Origin: Methanomassiliicoccales archaeon
GTDB taxonomy: Archaea; Thermoplasmatota; Thermoplasmata; Methanomassiliicoccales; UBA472
Direction: 5' to 3'
NCBI GenBank assembly: GCA_036504055.1
Contig: DASXVU010000039.1
Span: 1-51,319, forward strand
DNA length: 51,319 nt
Position numbers and translations under genes: made by a program. The notes under the pieces are model-generated. The model was not told the DNA's origin. It was given only the letters and a program-made list of their open reading frames with translations, and did no database searches. This document shows, in pieces, positions 35,097 to 42,472 of this stretch. Each line of letters starts with the position of its first letter. Positions within the stretch are counted from its first letter, which is position 1.

Positions 35097-35411
35097 GTGA
35101 AGTTCTGTTATTGTCCAGAATGCAAGGAGCTGCACCCCAAGAACTGGTATAGCGGGCGCTCGTGCGAAAGGTGCGACGGGACATGTACCGTTATCATCAT
35201 CCCCCCATCCCTGGCCGGTTATCTGATGTATGTGTTTAGCGCCCTGGCGGTCGTTCTCATCGTAGTCTTCCTGCTGGACACCAAGTGGGCCCTGTCTGAC
35301 CTTTCCGTTCCACTCATCTTTGCAGCCATCATCGCCGGGTTCGCATGCTCGTTCATCGAGATCGGTCGGGGCACTCGGCTGGCATATGAGCGGGTCCAGA
35401 AGAAGGTCTAA
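35097..35411 (+). CDS. Zinc-ribbon membrane protein
   Basis: 104 residues with a GTG start. N-terminal ribbon YCPECKELHP...SCERCDG (about 5-28), then two membrane helices (LAGYLMYVFSALAVVLIVVFLL and VPLIFAAIIAGFACSFIEIG) and a basic end. Unknown family. Follows the 128-residue protein gene and converges with the pilin-like genes, ending four bases past their stop (overlap 35408-35411). Confidence 0.65.
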   Translation: MKFCYCPECKELHPKNWYSGRSCERCDGTCTVIIIPPSLAGYLMYVFSALAVVLIVVFLLDTKWALSDLSVPLIFAAIIAGFACSFIEIGRGTRLAYERVQKKV

Positions 35412-35884
35412 GCATACCGGACCGTCAGCACGTAGCTGCATGGACCCGAAGGAGAGGCGACCGATAGGCTGGAGACAAAGATGTCGTCACCTACCGCACT
35501 CTGGTTTCCGCTCCCGAAAACATAACGGTACTCCCCTGACGAACACCTCCACTCCGCCGTGAACTGGGGTTGGAACAGACCCTGGAGCGTCGATTCGATC
35601 TCGGAATGGATCCTATCGGGGAGCGGTTTCTTGATGAACAGCAGGGTGCCGATGGCGTCCGAGACCGGCATGAACCGTTCCGATGATTCCGACCAGGAGC
35701 GAAGGGTCGTGCTCAGCAGGACGGCGTGACATTTCTCCACATACGCCTGCACATCCTGATCGATGCCGTGGACAGGAGTGAAGGCGACCAGGACGGTCAC
35801 GGACACGACCGACATCACCGTCAGGAACATGAGCGCGTCGAAGAGCGCTGCCATGCCGGACCTGCCCGGTCGTCTCATCGCCAT
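35408..35884 (-). CDS. Pilin-like protein 2
   Basis: 158 residues. The N terminus MAMRRPGRSGMAALFDALMF is followed by a hydrophobic helix (to about residue 37). The basic stretch, glycine, five residues, acidic residue and hydrophobic helix resemble class III (prepilin) signal sequences cleaved after Gly. The rest (about 40-158) is a soluble beta-rich domain with a C-x3-x-Y pattern (WRCSSGEYRYVFGSG) and a final PCSYVLTVRY strand. It overlaps the upstream pilin-like gene by ten bases. Probably exported and assembled or membrane-retained by the ATPase/TadC machinery encoded 3 kb away. Confidence 0.65.
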   Translation of the reverse strand: MAMRRPGRSGMAALFDALMFLTVMSVVSVTVLVAFTPVHGIDQDVQAYVEKCHAVLLSTTLRSWSESSERFMPVSDAIGTLLFIKKPLPDRIHSEIESTLQGLFQPQFTAEWRCSSGEYRYVFGSGNQSAVGDDIFVSSLSVASPSGPCSYVLTVRYA

Positions 35885-36345
35885 ACCATCACCGTGGCCT
35901 TGGCGGCGTGAACCGTCCGATCGGTCATGGAAAGCGTCAACGGGACCGAAATAGAGCAGGTCTCGTTCTCAGGGCTCAGCTCTCCCATTCGCACCAGGAC
36001 CTTGGAAGCTGCGCCCATGGTGATGTCCTGAAGCAGGATGGAATAGCCGTTGATCTTTGGACCGGCATGCAAGAGCGATGGATTGAGCGATCCAAGGGAT
36101 GAGTTCTGAAGGACATCCCCTTCGAAGAAAGGGGGTCCGAGCGAGAACACCTGGTCGGCAAGCGACCTGCAACCGTCATGGAGGGAGTTCTGTCCTGAAT
36201 CGCGCCTCAGGTCGATCCCGACGAATGCCAGCGAGGTGGTCACCAGGATCACTCCGCAGATGACCACCATCATCGCCAGGACCGACTCCATGAATCCTCC
36301 AATACCGGTCCGGCCGGGACGCCGACCTCCGGTCCGCTTGACCAT
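35875..36345 (-). CDS. Pilin-like protein 1
   Basis: 156 residues. It starts MVKRTGGRRPGRTGIGGFME with a following hydrophobic helix (SVLAMMVVICGVILVTTSLAFVG). The same RRPGR-x-G-x5-acidic pattern occurs in pilin-like protein 2, so the two are related N-terminally. The soluble domain (about 50-156) holds CRSLADQVFSLGPPFFEGDVL and a late C in ENETCSISVPLTLSM. First gene of a two-gene unit. A minor pilin or pseudopilin role is inferred from the signal and context. Confidence 0.65.
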   Translation of the reverse strand: MVKRTGGRRPGRTGIGGFMESVLAMMVVICGVILVTTSLAFVGIDLRRDSGQNSLHDGCRSLADQVFSLGPPFFEGDVLQNSSLGSLNPSLLHAGPKINGYSILLQDITMGAASKVLVRMGELSPENETCSISVPLTLSMTDRTVHAAKATVMVWR

Positions 36346-36401: not shown

Positions 36402-38330
36402 TCACGGTACGCCGTTCTGATAGTGGGCGGAGGTTATCGGTCCGCACTTCTTCCTCAGGACCGCCTTGCTGTCCAGGTCCCTCCCCTGGAACACTTTGGC
36501 GGCCAGCTCGGCCAGGTCCGGATGCCTGCGGCGCAGGTCCAGGGCGAAAGAATCGATGCCCATGTCCTCCATCTCCTGCAGATAGTCCAGGAGGAACAGG
36601 TCCGATGAGTTCGTTATGTGGGCATAGCCGTCCGTGTCACGGTAGACCTGGAAACGCTTGCCCAGATGGTCCATCAGGAAACCTTCTTTCAAAGACGGGT
36701 CCTTGGTGATCATCAGTTCCACCCTGCCGAAAGCCAGCACCTCCAAACGGCCGTCGTAATGCTGTACCGTCTCCCAGATGTCATCATGCGACAGTTCCAC
36801 CGACATAGTCTGCTGGAAGAGCCTGGGGATCGTCATCGAGTTGAAGAAGTTCATCGAGTGGTGGCCGTACAGACGCCGGTCTCCGTATTGATGGGCCTGG
36901 CCTACATTGCATACCATTATGGAGCTGTCCTCCAGCAACGGCATCTCCACCGACACCCGGGGCATGATCGGGACGAACTCCTGGCCGGCGTCCGTACACA
37001 TGGCCCGGGCCTCGTCGATCTGTTTGTTCCGCTCGAAATAGATGCGGTCGGAGAACGGCAGGACCTTCTCCAGCACCTTGAGGCTCGATGCGTACACGGA
37101 CATCTCCGCCTGCCTCGGCTGGCGCCGGTGCTTCGCCGGGCGGAGCTGGACCGGACGTCTCGTGGCGGTGAGCTCGGGGAACTGCATGGTATCGATCATC
37201 TTTCGCATGGAGTCGAACTCCCGGTCCTTCGTCTTGTATACGGTGAACTCGCCCACCTCCATCTTGAACGGGGAGCGCAGGTACACCGTTCCATCCCTGG
37301 TGCTGCTCTGCTCTTTGACCTCGAAACCGGCCAGCTTCTCGCTGCCCCGGTACATGGTGATCCCGTCGCCAGGAAGGACCTTGTCGGTCTTCAGCGCCAG
37401 CCTTGTTCCGTCGGAGACGGCCTTGCCCAGAGGAAGGCCGCGTGAATCCGCGTACTCCCGGGCCATGACATTCGTGTCCATCAGGTAACCGCGCGAGAAG
37501 CCCCGGTTGAACACCGTTTCCAGCAGTTCGCGTTCCCGCGGCGTGATCAGCTCGCGGTCGCCCGCCTGGGCCCTTTTGATGACCGACTTGTATATCTTGG
37601 TGGCCACGTAGACGTACAGCGGATTGCGCATCCGGCCTTCGATCTTGATCGATTTCACGCCGATGCGCAACAGCTCTGGGATCGCCTCGATGCCGAACGT
37701 GTCCGCAGTGCTGAGGAGGTAGCCGCGCTCATCCCCGAGCTCGTACTCCTTGCGGCAGGGCTGGGCGCACAGCCCGCGGTTACCGCTCCTGCCCCCGAGC
37801 ATGCTGGAGAACAGGCATTGTCCGGAGACGCAGTAACACAGCGCCCCGTGGACGAAAACCTCGAGGCCGACCTTGCTTCCCTCCTTGATCTTACGGATCT
37901 GGGCCAGGGACAGTTCCCGGGCCAGGATGACCCGCTCGATGCCCTCTTCCTGGGCCCATAGCGCCCCTTCGATAGAATCGATCCCCATCTGGGTCGATGC
38001 GTGCACCGGCATCTTGATGCTCTCTTTGATGAGGCGGAGAAGACCGCGGTCCTGGACGATGACCGCGTCCGCGTTTATGGAACGCAGCATGTCCACGTAC
38101 GAGGCGGCCGTTTCCAGCTCGCTCTCCTTGATCAACGTGTTGACGGTGACGTACACCTTGACGTGATGGTCATGGGCGAGCTTGATCGCAGAGCGCATCT
38201 CCCCATCATCAAAATTCTCGGCCAAACGCCGGGCGCCGAAGTCCTTCCCGCCCAGGTAGACCGCGTCCGCTCCTCCGATGATGGCCGCCTTCAGGGCGTC
38301 CTTGTATCCTACCGGCGCTAACAGCTCCAC
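36402..38330 (-). CDS. Peptidase U32-family RNA hydroxylation protein
   Basis: 642 residues, GTG start, the long U32 form. A TIM-barrel-like N-terminal half (MELLAPVGYKDALKAAIIGGADAVYLGG) carries the family cysteines C165, C167, C172, C188 and C192 in HGALCYCVSGQCLF and NRGLCAQPCRK, expected to hold an Fe-S cluster. DTFGIEAIPELLRIGVKSIKIEGRMR follows, then C-terminal extensions. Relatives TrhP and RlhA hydroxylate tRNA uridine-34 or 23S rRNA cytidine. Peptidase activity is doubtful for most members. It lies between the pilin-like genes and the pilus ATPase operon, probably by chance. Confidence 0.9.
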   Translation of the reverse strand: MELLAPVGYKDALKAAIIGGADAVYLGGKDFGARRLAENFDDGEMRSAIKLAHDHHVKVYVTVNTLIKESELETAASYVDMLRSINADAVIVQDRGLLRLIKESIKMPVHASTQMGIDSIEGALWAQEEGIERVILARELSLAQIRKIKEGSKVGLEVFVHGALCYCVSGQCLFSSMLGGRSGNRGLCAQPCRKEYELGDERGYLLSTADTFGIEAIPELLRIGVKSIKIEGRMRNPLYVYVATKIYKSVIKRAQAGDRELITPRERELLETVFNRGFSRGYLMDTNVMAREYADSRGLPLGKAVSDGTRLALKTDKVLPGDGITMYRGSEKLAGFEVKEQSSTRDGTVYLRSPFKMEVGEFTVYKTKDREFDSMRKMIDTMQFPELTATRRPVQLRPAKHRRQPRQAEMSVYASSLKVLEKVLPFSDRIYFERNKQIDEARAMCTDAGQEFVPIMPRVSVEMPLLEDSSIMVCNVGQAHQYGDRRLYGHHSMNFFNSMTIPRLFQQTMSVELSHDDIWETVQHYDGRLEVLAFGRVELMITKDPSLKEGFLMDHLGKRFQVYRDTDGYAHITNSSDLFLLDYLQEMEDMGIDSFALDLRRRHPDLAELAAKVFQGRDLDSKAVLRKKCGPITSAHYQNGVP

Positions 38331-38445: not shown

Positions 38446-39000
38446 ATGAGGGCAAAGCGAGTATTGGTTGCAAAGAGGCCGGCCGTCCAGACGTTGGAGC
38501 CGAAGAGGACCGAATGTGTTTTTACGCGGTCAGAGGACGGCCTTCTGTTCGATTGCCGTGGCTGTCCCCAGGGAAAGGACCTGAACGACGTCGTCTGCCT
38601 GAAACGGGTCATCTCTGTCCTCGCCGATCAGACTGAAGTGAACGAGGTCGTTCTTTCCGGCGATTGGGAATCGCTTTACCGCGAGGGCTGCGTCCGGGTC
38701 CTGAACGCCTATGCGGAACTGGTCCGGGCCTGCCGCTGCGGCAGCCTGGCGGTCCAGGGCGGTGAGCAATGCCAATCCTGCCCGAACGACCCGAGGAAGC
38801 TTGTGGCCGCGATCGCCGACCGGGCACCGCTGCCCTGGGATGACCTCCGCCGCCGGGCTTCGTCGGCCGCCGTCCGTCCGGGCTGCTATGCCTGTGCCGC
38901 TTCCGCCGCTTCTCTGATGACCCGCCTGGAAGCCATCTCCAAAGGGATCGACCGCATCGTCGCAAAAGAGGCCTTCCGCATCGTGGGGGTCTCGGAATGA
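38446..39000 (+). CDS. Cysteine-rich protein coupled to the pilus ATPase
   Basis: 184 residues with eleven cysteines, several in pairs: CRGC (37-40), C51, C96-x-C98, CQSC (109-112), CYAC (147-150). They could hold one or two zinc ions or Fe-S clusters. No known domain is recognised. The stop overlaps the ATPase ATG as ATGA, so the two are translationally coupled, and the three-gene order cysteine-rich protein, ATPase, TadC is tight. It may be a detached regulatory or N-terminal domain of the ATPase. That is inference. Confidence 0.75.
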   Translation: MRAKRVLVAKRPAVQTLEPKRTECVFTRSEDGLLFDCRGCPQGKDLNDVVCLKRVISVLADQTEVNEVVLSGDWESLYREGCVRVLNAYAELVRACRCGSLAVQGGEQCQSCPNDPRKLVAAIADRAPLPWDDLRRRASSAAVRPGCYACAASAASLMTRLEAISKGIDRIVAKEAFRIVGVSE

Positions 39001-40718
39001 TGCCCCGGATCATAGCCGAGCAGGTCACCGTCCGTCAGCCGAACGAGGTTCCGCGGGGAGTACGCCAGTTGCTCAACCGTGACCGGATGAAGCGCCCGCG
39101 CTTTTCCCAATGCTGGACCCTTCCCTCGCAGGCCAATGGTCTGACGGCCATCGATGCCTACGCCGTCTCGGATTCGCAGGTCCAGATACTTACGAAGGGC
39201 ACTCAGACATTCTACCATGTCTCTCCCTGGGAGTACAACATCCCCAAGGAATGGTCGCTAGCGGTGCAGGAGACCATAGATGCGGTTTCGAACTGCCCCC
39301 CTGCCGACATCTCACGCTCCTATGAAGAGCTGCGCAGATACGTCCGCGAGACCGCCACCCGTACCATCAGCAGGATCGCCCAGAGGGATCGTGTCGATCT
39401 TGGTTCTGATGAGAAGGAAAGGACCTCGATCATCGATAAGCTGGCCAACGTCACCGCCAGATACACCATCGGACTGGGGCTGTTCGAGGTCCTTCTGGGC
39501 GATGACCGGATCGAGGACATCTACGTCGACGCTCCGAGCCAGGACAACCCGATCCATGTGACGGTGGGCGGGATTAAGGGCAGCGGTACGGTGGTCCGCT
39601 GCCAGACGAACATCGTGGCCTCGGGCAACGAGATCGAGGGACTGGTCTCGCGTTTCCGGCAATACAGCAGAAGGCCGTTCTCCGAGGCCTTCCCGGTCCT
39701 CGAGACCGACGCGGTCGGGTTCGACGCCCGGGCCACGTTCATCGGCAAGCCCCTGTCGCCCAACGGTACGGCCCTGGCGCTGAGGAGACATGCGCGCAGC
39801 GTATGGACCCTGCCCAGGTTCATGTACAACGGAACGATCGACGCCATGACCGCCGGTCTCATCTCCTTCCTCATCGACGGCCGGAGCACCATTCTTTTCT
39901 GCGGTCCGCGAGGCTCAGGCAAGTCCTCCCTGCTTTCCGCATCGCTGTTCGAGTTCCCTGTCAGCCAGAGGATCCTGACCATCGAGGATACCATGGAACT
40001 TCCCTGCCGCCAGATGCAACGCCTGGGATTCAAGGTGCAATCGATGCTGGTGGAGAACCGGATGGGTCAAGACCGGGCGGACCGAACGGACGAGGCTTTG
40101 AGGGTGTCGTTGCGATTGGGCGAATCGGCCATAGTGCTCGGGGAGGTTCGCGGCAAGGAGGCGATGACCCTGTACGAGAGCATGCGGACCGGCAAGGCCG
40201 GCTCGTCAGTGCTGGGAACCATCCATGGCGACTCCGCGCGATCGGTCTTCGAGCGCGTGGTCCACGACCTGGGCATCTCCGGTGAGGCGTTCAGCGCCAC
40301 GGACATGGTGATCACCCTTGGTCTTAACCGGATCGCCGGGGGTCAGCGCCAGGAGCGCAAGGTCGTGGAAGTGGCGGAATGCGCCAGGAGCCGCGGCGTC
40401 GGGGAGTTCAACAGATTGGTGGTCTATGACAACAACTCCGCAACTCCGGTGTTCGACCGTTCGTTCACGTCGGAGTGCATTTCCCGGATAGCCTCCTCAT
40501 GGAACATCAGTTACGAGGAGGCGATGCTCAACATCGAGAGCCGGGCACGGATGAGGCAGGCCCTGGTCGACGCGGCCTTTGCGGGACGGACCGATTTCCT
40601 GGGACCGGAATGGACCTGCAAATGCAACGAGTTCTTCTGGAGCCGAGTGGACTCGAAGGAAAGGGACTACGACGCCATGGTCAGGGATTTCACCCAGCTG
40701 ATCTCAAGGGGAATGTGA
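38997..40718 (+). CDS. Type II/IV secretion (archaeal pilus) ATPase, GspE/TadA/VirB11-like
   Basis: 573 residues. N-terminal domain to about 155, then the catalytic part: arginine-rich linker region, Walker A CGPRGSGKSS (302-311), Asp box TIEDTMELP (328-336), Walker B IVLGEVRGKE (379-388), His box TIHGDSA (408-414). It should form a cytosolic hexamer that powers pilin polymerisation or export. The C-terminal 90 residues contain CKCNEFFW. Coupled upstream to the cysteine-rich protein by ATGA and downstream to the membrane partner by a 2-base gap. The two pilin-like genes nearby are the likely substrates. Confidence 0.92.
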   Translation: MMPRIIAEQVTVRQPNEVPRGVRQLLNRDRMKRPRFSQCWTLPSQANGLTAIDAYAVSDSQVQILTKGTQTFYHVSPWEYNIPKEWSLAVQETIDAVSNCPPADISRSYEELRRYVRETATRTISRIAQRDRVDLGSDEKERTSIIDKLANVTARYTIGLGLFEVLLGDDRIEDIYVDAPSQDNPIHVTVGGIKGSGTVVRCQTNIVASGNEIEGLVSRFRQYSRRPFSEAFPVLETDAVGFDARATFIGKPLSPNGTALALRRHARSVWTLPRFMYNGTIDAMTAGLISFLIDGRSTILFCGPRGSGKSSLLSASLFEFPVSQRILTIEDTMELPCRQMQRLGFKVQSMLVENRMGQDRADRTDEALRVSLRLGESAIVLGEVRGKEAMTLYESMRTGKAGSSVLGTIHGDSARSVFERVVHDLGISGEAFSATDMVITLGLNRIAGGQRQERKVVEVAECARSRGVGEFNRLVVYDNNSATPVFDRSFTSECISRIASSWNISYEEAMLNIESRARMRQALVDAAFAGRTDFLGPEWTCKCNEFFWSRVDSKERDYDAMVRDFTQLISRGM

Positions 40719-40720
40719 GG

Positions 40721-42472
40721 ATGTCTCCCCTGGTCCGAACGGAACGGAGAACGCCGTCGTGGTTCTGTTCGATGTTCAAGTCGAAGCGGACCGATGCCCA
40801 GCTTGATTGGATGAGGAGGCATAGGGTGACCGAGGAAGCCCTGCGCACCCGGGCATATACCGCTTTCATCACGGTCGCGGCCGTCGGCATGGTCTTACTC
40901 GCTTCGATGGGCATCATGTTCGGGCCTACCATCCTTTCCTACCTCGTGATCCCCTTCCTGCTGACCATGGTCATCATTCCTTCGTTGATCATCGGTTCTC
41001 CCTCCAACGGTACAAAGCGGGAGGAGCTGGATATGCTTCGTGAGTCACCGAACGTCATAGGGGCGATGTCGATGAGCATGCAGCTCCAGCCCTCCCTCGA
41101 TCGGGCGGTGGCCTTTGCGTCGCAATATGAGGACGGATCGTTGAACCAACGTCTCAGGATCCTGCTATGGCAGGTGCTCACCCGAGTACGCTATGACCTG
41201 CCCACTTCCATGATGGAGTTCGCCGCCACCCTGACCGAGGAGAACGAAAGTCTACGCCAGTCCATCCACCTTTTCATCTCGGCCACCCACGAATCGACAC
41301 GTGAAGGAATGGACCGCCTGCTGGACAAGGCGAACGCTCTGGTCATCGACGGGGTGAAGGACCGGGTCGAGCGCTACGTGGCCTCGCTGGCCCTGCCCAC
41401 CATGGTGTTCTTCGCGTTCGGGATCCTGCTGCCGGTGATGATGTTCTCGCTGGTGCCATTGCTCACCCTCGGCAGCGTATCGTCCATCGGCTCCGGGGCC
41501 AATGCGGCCCCGATCGTCTCCGACGCAGAACTGGCACTGCTCCTCCTGGTGGTGTTCCCGGCCGCCTCCTTCCTATATTCCCGGTCCACACTGTCCCGAA
41601 ATCCATTGCAGGCGGTCGGGCGGCCGACGCTGTCCCTAGACCCGAAAGCGGTCGCGGGGATCGTCCTTTACATCGCATCGATGATCGTTCTCTCCATCGC
41701 GTTGGTCGGTGATCGCCCCGAGATCGTCCTGATCATCGGCGTGTGCCTGCCTTCCGGCTATTTCTACGTCCGCTTCAGAGGAGAGCACGCCCGCACCACC
41801 CGCATACCAGGGATCGAGAAGGAATTCGTCAACGCGTTGTACCAGATGGGGAACCGGATGACCACCGGAATCAGCTTTGATGTCGCCTTCGAGGAAGTGG
41901 CCCGTTCCCGGTCGTCATCCCCGTTCGGAGAGTTCGTCCGGAGGACCAGGTACAGGTGCCTGACCACCAAGCAGGACCTTCCGACGATCATCGCCGATGA
42001 CAAGGAGCTGATGGGCCTTTCACCGCTGATAAGGAACGCGATCATCACCGTGGCCGAATGCGCCGCCTCTGACCCGCAGGCCGCGGGCAAGGTCGCGCTG
42101 AACCTGGCCCAGTACCTCTCCGACCTGCGCTCCTGCCAGGCCAAGATAAGAGAGAAGCTGCAGAGCGTGGTCGACATGATGACCTCGACCAGCGCCATCT
42201 TCGCCCCGATCGTCCTGGGGATCACCGGCAGTTTGTTCTCCCTGGTGGGGGCGGTTTCCCCCGGGTCGGGTTCGGTACAGAACATGACCCTGATCGGCGG
42301 CATCTACGTGGTCGAGCTGACCTTCATCGTTTCCTTCTTCACCGTGTTCCTGCTCGGCGGCAAGAACTGGACCGAGGTCGCCTACCGGTTCTTCACCAAG
42401 GCGCCGGTGGCGGTGGTCGTGTTCATTTCAGTTTCACTAGCCGCTCGGGGAGGCCTGACGCAACTTCTGTGA
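40721..42472 (+). CDS. TadC/GspF-type membrane protein of the pilus system
   Basis: 583 residues from the ATG two bases after the ATPase stop. A longer in-frame reading overlaps the ATPase and is rejected. Two T2SSF domains: the first about residues 90-270 (LRESPNVIGAMSMSMQLQPSLDRAVAFAS) and the second about 345-510 (FVNALYQMGNRMTTGISFDVAFEEVARS). Each is followed by paired membrane helices, with a further pair near the N terminus and at the C terminus (about eight in all). It anchors the ATPase to the membrane in type IV pilus, archaellum and Tad systems. Its 3' end overlaps the convergent FmdE gene by 50 bases. Confidence 0.9.
   Translation: MSPLVRTERRTPSWFCSMFKSKRTDAQLDWMRRHRVTEEALRTRAYTAFITVAAVGMVLLASMGIMFGPTILSYLVIPFLLTMVIIPSLIIGSPSNGTKREELDMLRESPNVIGAMSMSMQLQPSLDRAVAFASQYEDGSLNQRLRILLWQVLTRVRYDLPTSMMEFAATLTEENESLRQSIHLFISATHESTREGMDRLLDKANALVIDGVKDRVERYVASLALPTMVFFAFGILLPVMMFSLVPLLTLGSVSSIGSGANAAPIVSDAELALLLLVVFPAASFLYSRSTLSRNPLQAVGRPTLSLDPKAVAGIVLYIASMIVLSIALVGDRPEIVLIIGVCLPSGYFYVRFRGEHARTTRIPGIEKEFVNALYQMGNRMTTGISFDVAFEEVARSRSSSPFGEFVRRTRYRCLTTKQDLPTIIADDKELMGLSPLIRNAIITVAECAASDPQAAGKVALNLAQYLSDLRSCQAKIREKLQSVVDMMTSTSAIFAPIVLGITGSLFSLVGAVSPGSGSVQNMTLIGGIYVVELTFIVSFFTVFLLGGKNWTEVAYRFFTKAPVAVVVFISVSLAARGGLTQLL

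Follow-up and report, generated by a model that had tools for sequence, protein, structure and literature searches.

Motor ATPases of the GspE/PilB type hold zinc through a CxxC-x21-40-CxxC motif in their CM domain, which is essential in EpsE, whose activity needs zinc held by CxxC-x29-CxxC (PMC5061722). The N1D/MshEN domains of PilB and GspE are N-terminal accessory modules that dock or regulate pilus motors (PMC11656802). Among archaea, the passages of a 2016 census considered here describe cysteine-rich N-termini on the ATPases of subclade 4F as variable domains with proposed disulfides (section 12), report Zn-ribbon or cysteine-rich cytoplasmic proteins (arCOG05056, arCOG06883, and arCOG07264) in the type IV pilus (T4P) loci of other clades, and name Methanomassiliicoccus as one of the exceptions that lack such ATPases (PMC4858521). 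Here we describe a locus in a 51,319-nucleotide stretch from a Methanomassiliicoccales archaeon (GenBank assembly GCA_036504055.1, contig DASXVU010000039.1, positions 1 to 51,319 of the forward strand; the whole stretch is referred to as the window), in which a small cysteine-rich protein, referred to as the Cys protein, is encoded directly upstream of a pilus-type ATPase. We consider it likely that the Cys protein serves a type IV filament motor as a detachable, split two-zinc N-terminal accessory module, with a docking or stabilizing role.

The three genes and the predicted metal ligands are as follows; fractions give the presence of cysteine among 116 distinct sequences collected with a profile that itself rewards cysteines, such that degenerate members are under-counted and the counts describe the typical form.

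38446..39000, plus strand: probable cysteine-rich two-site accessory protein, 184 residues (open reading frame [ORF]; orthologues; AlphaFold2 model md9b03629ef1e)
38515..38517, plus strand: Cys24 codon, predicted fourth ligand of site I; other lineages have Cys at position 54 instead
38554..38565, plus strand: C37xxC40, predicted site I (C37 116/116, C40 112/116)
38596..38598, plus strand: Cys51, predicted site I (116/116)
38770..38781, plus strand: C109xxC112, predicted site II (C109 116/116; C112 113/116, a new Cys ahead of C147 in the remaining three)
38884..38895, plus strand: C147xxC150, predicted site II (116/116 each)
38997..40718, plus strand: type II/IV secretion (archaeal GspE/FlaI/TadA-like) ATPase, 573 residues (PF00437; PDB 2oap), with an ATGA overlap with the Cys gene
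40721..42472, plus strand: polytopic membrane protein, 583 residues, with about 9 to 11 hydrophobic segments, a probable TadC/GspF-like platform protein starting 2 nt past the ATPase stop

The original prediction, of a 184-residue, eleven-cysteine protein whose gene overlaps that of the ATPase by ATGA, is borne out: at the junction (GAATGATG) the TGA stop and the ATG start share the ATGA, with a second possible ATG for the ATPase 3 nt past the overlapping one. The junction varies among relatives from an overlap to a gap of a few bases, and so the genes are generally closely coupled, although not always through an ATGA. The eleven cysteines are at positions 24, 37, 40, 51, 82, 96, 98, 109, 112, 147, and 150, and the protein has no transmembrane segment.

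Only eight cysteine positions are conserved, seven of them fixed and the eighth being either C24 or C54, and cysteine at all other alignment columns averages 0.9%. These form a predicted site I (C24 or C54, with C37, C40, and C51) and a predicted site II (C109, C112, C147, and C150), the latter spaced CxxC-x34-CxxC in the window and CxxC-x29-54-CxxC across the family, with a mode of 36. With alternatives counted, exactly four plus four cysteines are present in 104 of the 116 sequences, and site II has all four in every one. The predicted conservation of cysteines in homologues therefore holds, as does that of the CxxC pairs, but C82, C96, and C98 of the window protein are not conserved among relatives, and the CxC motif (C96/C98) is not a feature of the family.

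The eighth ligand position was scored in 84 sequences: 57 have only C24, 22 only C54, 5 neither, and none both. On the tree, C54 changes approximately three times independently, and C24 moves oppositely in nearly all pairings and never alike. A different clade (L026, L028, L158, and L171) has lost C112 and has a new cysteine about 8 residues before C147. That C24 and C54 swap and never occur together points to two tetracysteine metal sites, which, on the sequence evidence, the protein very probably has, with zinc as the predicted metal. We note that the Cys protein at L144:2220-3044 has an extra C-terminal zinc-ribbon-like stretch, CRTCGYPLLNGQQACNNCG.

The Cys gene is widespread and closely linked to the ATPase. 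A single-sequence query finds protein-level relatives in 31 of 61 kin genomes, showing that the gene is no chance ORF, and in loci fetched from kin genomes the ATPase lies directly downstream wherever downstream sequence suffices (L023 ends at a contig end). A 29-row profile has matches in 163/400 genomes of the class and 63/196 of the phylum; across the order, the gene is present in 68 of the 76 genomes that are at least 90% complete, at one place per genome. For an unbiased test of linkage, named genomes were scanned and 80 loci chosen by an ATPase profile alone, all but one titled Thermoplasmatota/Thermoplasmata, a member or group thereof, or Euryarchaeota, and one titled "bacterium." Among these, the Cys gene is adjacent upstream in 64 and fused in 5, and in 3 it precedes an ATPase whose N-terminus is long, whereas 5 are without the domain and 3 are at a contig end; the domain thus adjoins or is fused to the ATPase in 72 of the 77 loci not cut by a contig end, and the predicted gene order recurs elsewhere. 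The five loci without a Cys gene include three clean losses and two with short ATPase N-terminal cysteine motifs, CPYC-x10-CRTC (zinc-ribbon-like) in L130 and CCPHC in L135, which perhaps replace the Cys partner. The same profile finds only remote ATPases in viral contigs.

The association is with one ATPase in particular, as the window's own genome codes for four T2SSE ATPases but a single Cys gene, beside the window ATPase; the archaellum-type ATPase (contig C18) and two ATPases on contig C34 have no Cys partner. The two genes are also lost together: the Cys gene is missing from eight near-complete genomes of the order, and five of these (G026, G035, G038, G053, and G242) have no orthologous ATPase either, with remote paralogues or none. 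At one further locus (L207, genome G060), an in-frame TAG falls within the Cys gene, after its likely start and ahead of C37; TAG can encode pyrrolysine in relatives of this order, which leaves readthrough or a broken gene as possible readings.

Fusions of the two proteins, which the original prediction proposed to seek, are plentiful. Twenty-one ORFs, mostly outside the window's own order, encode a single chain in which the Cys domain is directly N-terminal to the ATPase, the position that corresponds to the separate gene just upstream in the window. On the ATPase tree the fused state changes at least three times, an approximate count from a quick tree method. Because the Cys domain is so often fused to the motor in relatives, a detachable piece of the motor is likelier than a separate redox switch.

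The partner is readily assigned: the window ATPase matches PF00437 with 73.8 bits (curated cut-off, 24.9) and PDB 2oap by sequence (E value, 1e-20), and G303, R305, G308, K309, E330-D331-T332, G382-E383-V384-R385-G386, and H410 are invariant in 22 relatives. The two-domain ring-ATPase fold is matched by the model of a fused relative, the window ATPase being compared by sequence only. The third-gene membrane protein comes after the ATPase in nearly all loci, and the 2-nt spacing that was described is correct. Its labeling as TadC-type is weaker, as Pfam gives the window protein no T2SSF match, three relatives touch T2SSF at E values of 0.1 to 0.7, below the curated cut-off, and of the T2SSF proteins in its own genome, hhalign aligned one at a probability of 11.5% and the other not at all. 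Action as a platform protein is judged by position, and homology to TadC is plausible.

An AlphaFold2 model of the Cys protein built from a 60-row alignment (predicted local distance difference test [pLDDT], 85.4; predicted template modeling score [pTM], 0.77) has strands at 25-28, 32-36, 67-71, and 75-79 and helices at 49-61, 81-102, 116-126, 132-139, and 148-177. A separate model of a natural fusion (L132, 769 residues; pTM, 0.64) repeats this order of strands and helices in residues 22-186, and its best solved match is the archaeal GspE 2oap (E value, 1.5e-28; TMt, 0.82; ∼543 columns), followed by FlaI and CpaF. As those structures have approximately 500 residues, the Cys domain appears in the model to be an extra N-terminal module beyond the solved ATPase folds.

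That the Cys protein has no recognized domain holds against Pfam, NCBIfam, and PDB, where neither the protein itself nor the 29- and 60-row profiles had any significant sequence match. When 60 members were scanned against known zinc-ribbon and Fe-S families in Pfam and NCBIfam, none exceeded a curated cut-off, and there were isolated low-significance matches in one or two members each, none of them family-wide. A Foldseek search of PDB and BFVD with the model gave no match at an E value of ≤1e-3, and the fold may be a known but unsolved one, beyond those two collections.

These observations suggest how the module would work. The fold of the Cys protein would be a beta-hairpin/helix/beta-hairpin/long-helix unit leading into a helical part, and the two tetracysteine sites, with most likely one Zn2+ each, would hold it together. 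The overlapping genes would keep production of the Cys protein and the ATPase in step, and the Cys protein would bind the N-terminal face of the ATPase, presumably to stabilize the motor or dock it beneath the membrane platform protein, much as GspE/PilB motors are served by their own N-terminal and zinc modules.

Several findings weigh against this reading. Site I is down to two or three cysteines in 12 of the 116 sequences, the fused protein of L095 has lost most ligands and is among the degenerate members that the collecting profile misses, and the C24/C54 exchange gives a P value of 0.25 in an independent-pairs sign test, because there are so few events. Three genomes of one genus (G006, G010, and G014) have kept the ATPase orthologue (E value, about 1e-180) and lost the Cys gene, which is thus dispensable there; in the one-contig genome G006, ∼97 bp separate the ATPase and the U32 gene, and the pilin-like pair is kept. 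The Cys partner is thus normally retained yet losable. Most ligands are likewise lost in a Haloterrigena ATPase (pHTUR04, WP_012945992.1), a colinear, Cys-poor homologue (E value, 5e-4 against a broad profile with the search space set to 1000) through which the domain probably reaches Halobacteria, as judged by sequence. A candidate for a split partner upstream of the Haloterrigena ATPase has no cysteines. We also note that two Haloterrigena plasmids typed as non-mobilizable (L189 and L188) carry an ATPase and membrane-protein pair in which a degenerate version of this N-terminal domain is present.

The locus was originally interpreted as encoding a metal- or Fe-S-containing control element, perhaps sensing redox state. 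A metal-binding partner of the ATPase is well supported by the conserved cysteines, the adjoining genes, and the natural fusions, but the redox-sensing part does not share that support. A sensor in which an Fe-S cluster or a Zn-thiolate switch toggles the pilus ATPase would suit all-cysteine ligands in a lineage rich in strict anaerobes, and a separate chain that could dissociate, and Hsp33 is a precedent for a zinc redox switch (discussed in PMC5061722). However, most members retain all ligands at both sites even though ligand positions have been exchanged, fused forms are common, and known Fe-S families are matched only at chance level, such that we regard a sensor as unlikely; redox control of the motor is possible but unsupported, and no result here calls for it. 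We consider it quite unlikely that the motor is gated in trans by the Cys protein as a dissociable subunit responsive to metal or redox state, with control reversible where the two are split and locked in the fused lineages. Full four-cysteine sites maintained through ligand exchange, together with fusion into the motor, are more in keeping with a metal module for structure or docking than with redox control.

The Cys gene could alternatively be an operon passenger, coding for a zinc-ribbon-like protein with another job (such as nucleic acid binding) and sharing only a promoter. The site I region has a weak, non-significant likeness to the RPB9 zinc ribbon (E value, 0.04) and the Cys gene alone is lost in one genus, but its repeated fusion to and co-loss with this ATPase, its tie to one of four paralogues, and the phylum-wide linkage make this very unlikely. 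The cytoplasm of methanogens is reducing, which counts against disulfides. A disulfide-stabilized domain, as proposed for the subclade 4F N-termini in section 12 of the 2016 census (PMC4858521), is highly improbable, as the Cys protein has no transmembrane segment, its partner ATPase is of a cytoplasmic family, and CxxC pairs in fours with one-for-one replacement of positions are as expected of tetrahedral metal sites.

Upstream of the Cys gene, and divergent from it, is a U32 peptidase family gene (36402-38330, minus strand), beyond which are two overlapping pilin-like genes with hydrophobic, class III-like N-termini, neither matched by Pfam.

35875..36345, minus strand: pilin-like protein with a class III-like N-terminus, GIGGFMESVLAMMVV; neighborhood-conserved
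35408..35884, minus strand: pilin-like protein with N-terminus RSGMAALFDALMFLT; neighborhood-conserved

Many Methanomassiliicoccales keep the U32 peptidase gene between the motor genes and the pilin-like pair, and the pair is kept beyond it in relatives, even in a genome without the Cys gene.

What is new here is an undescribed, probable two-site tetracysteine domain that is present as a separate subunit or a fusion across many Thermoplasmatota and is tied to one kind of archaeal pilus-type motor. A vaguely "variable cysteine-rich N-terminus" thereby becomes a metal module that can be tested and whose ligands are specified. The Methanomassiliicoccales, exceptions in the portion of the 2016 census considered here, mostly carry an ATPase of this superfamily, with the Cys partner in 68/76 genomes and the ATPase alone in three more. 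The element is also less unusual than was supposed, as a cysteine-rich domain on such ATPases is not wholly without precedent in that portion (PMC4858521). As in subclade 4F, an archaeal VirB11/TadA-like ATPase that has a TadC-like partner is immediately preceded by a cysteine-rich region, but in the present family a gene of its own often encodes that region, with two defined four-cysteine sites, and the passages on subclade 4F name no separate subunit (PMC4858521). The CM domain of GspE/PilB is likewise a tetracysteine module of the same motor superfamily, with a spacing that site II of the window (x34) fits, but it is C-terminal in the ATPase chain, whereas the Cys domain is N-terminal or separate and has a second tetracysteine site; the CM domain is a precedent by function, located elsewhere in the chain. 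The N1D/MshEN domains resemble the proposed Cys module in being N-terminal accessory modules of pilus motors, with no sequence or fold match to it in the Pfam/NCBIfam and PDB searches, in which a cyclic di-GMP motif was not sought. The arCOG05056, arCOG06883, and arCOG07264 proteins are similar in being predicted metal-binding proteins tied to T4P loci, a likeness drawn from their descriptions in the census passages.

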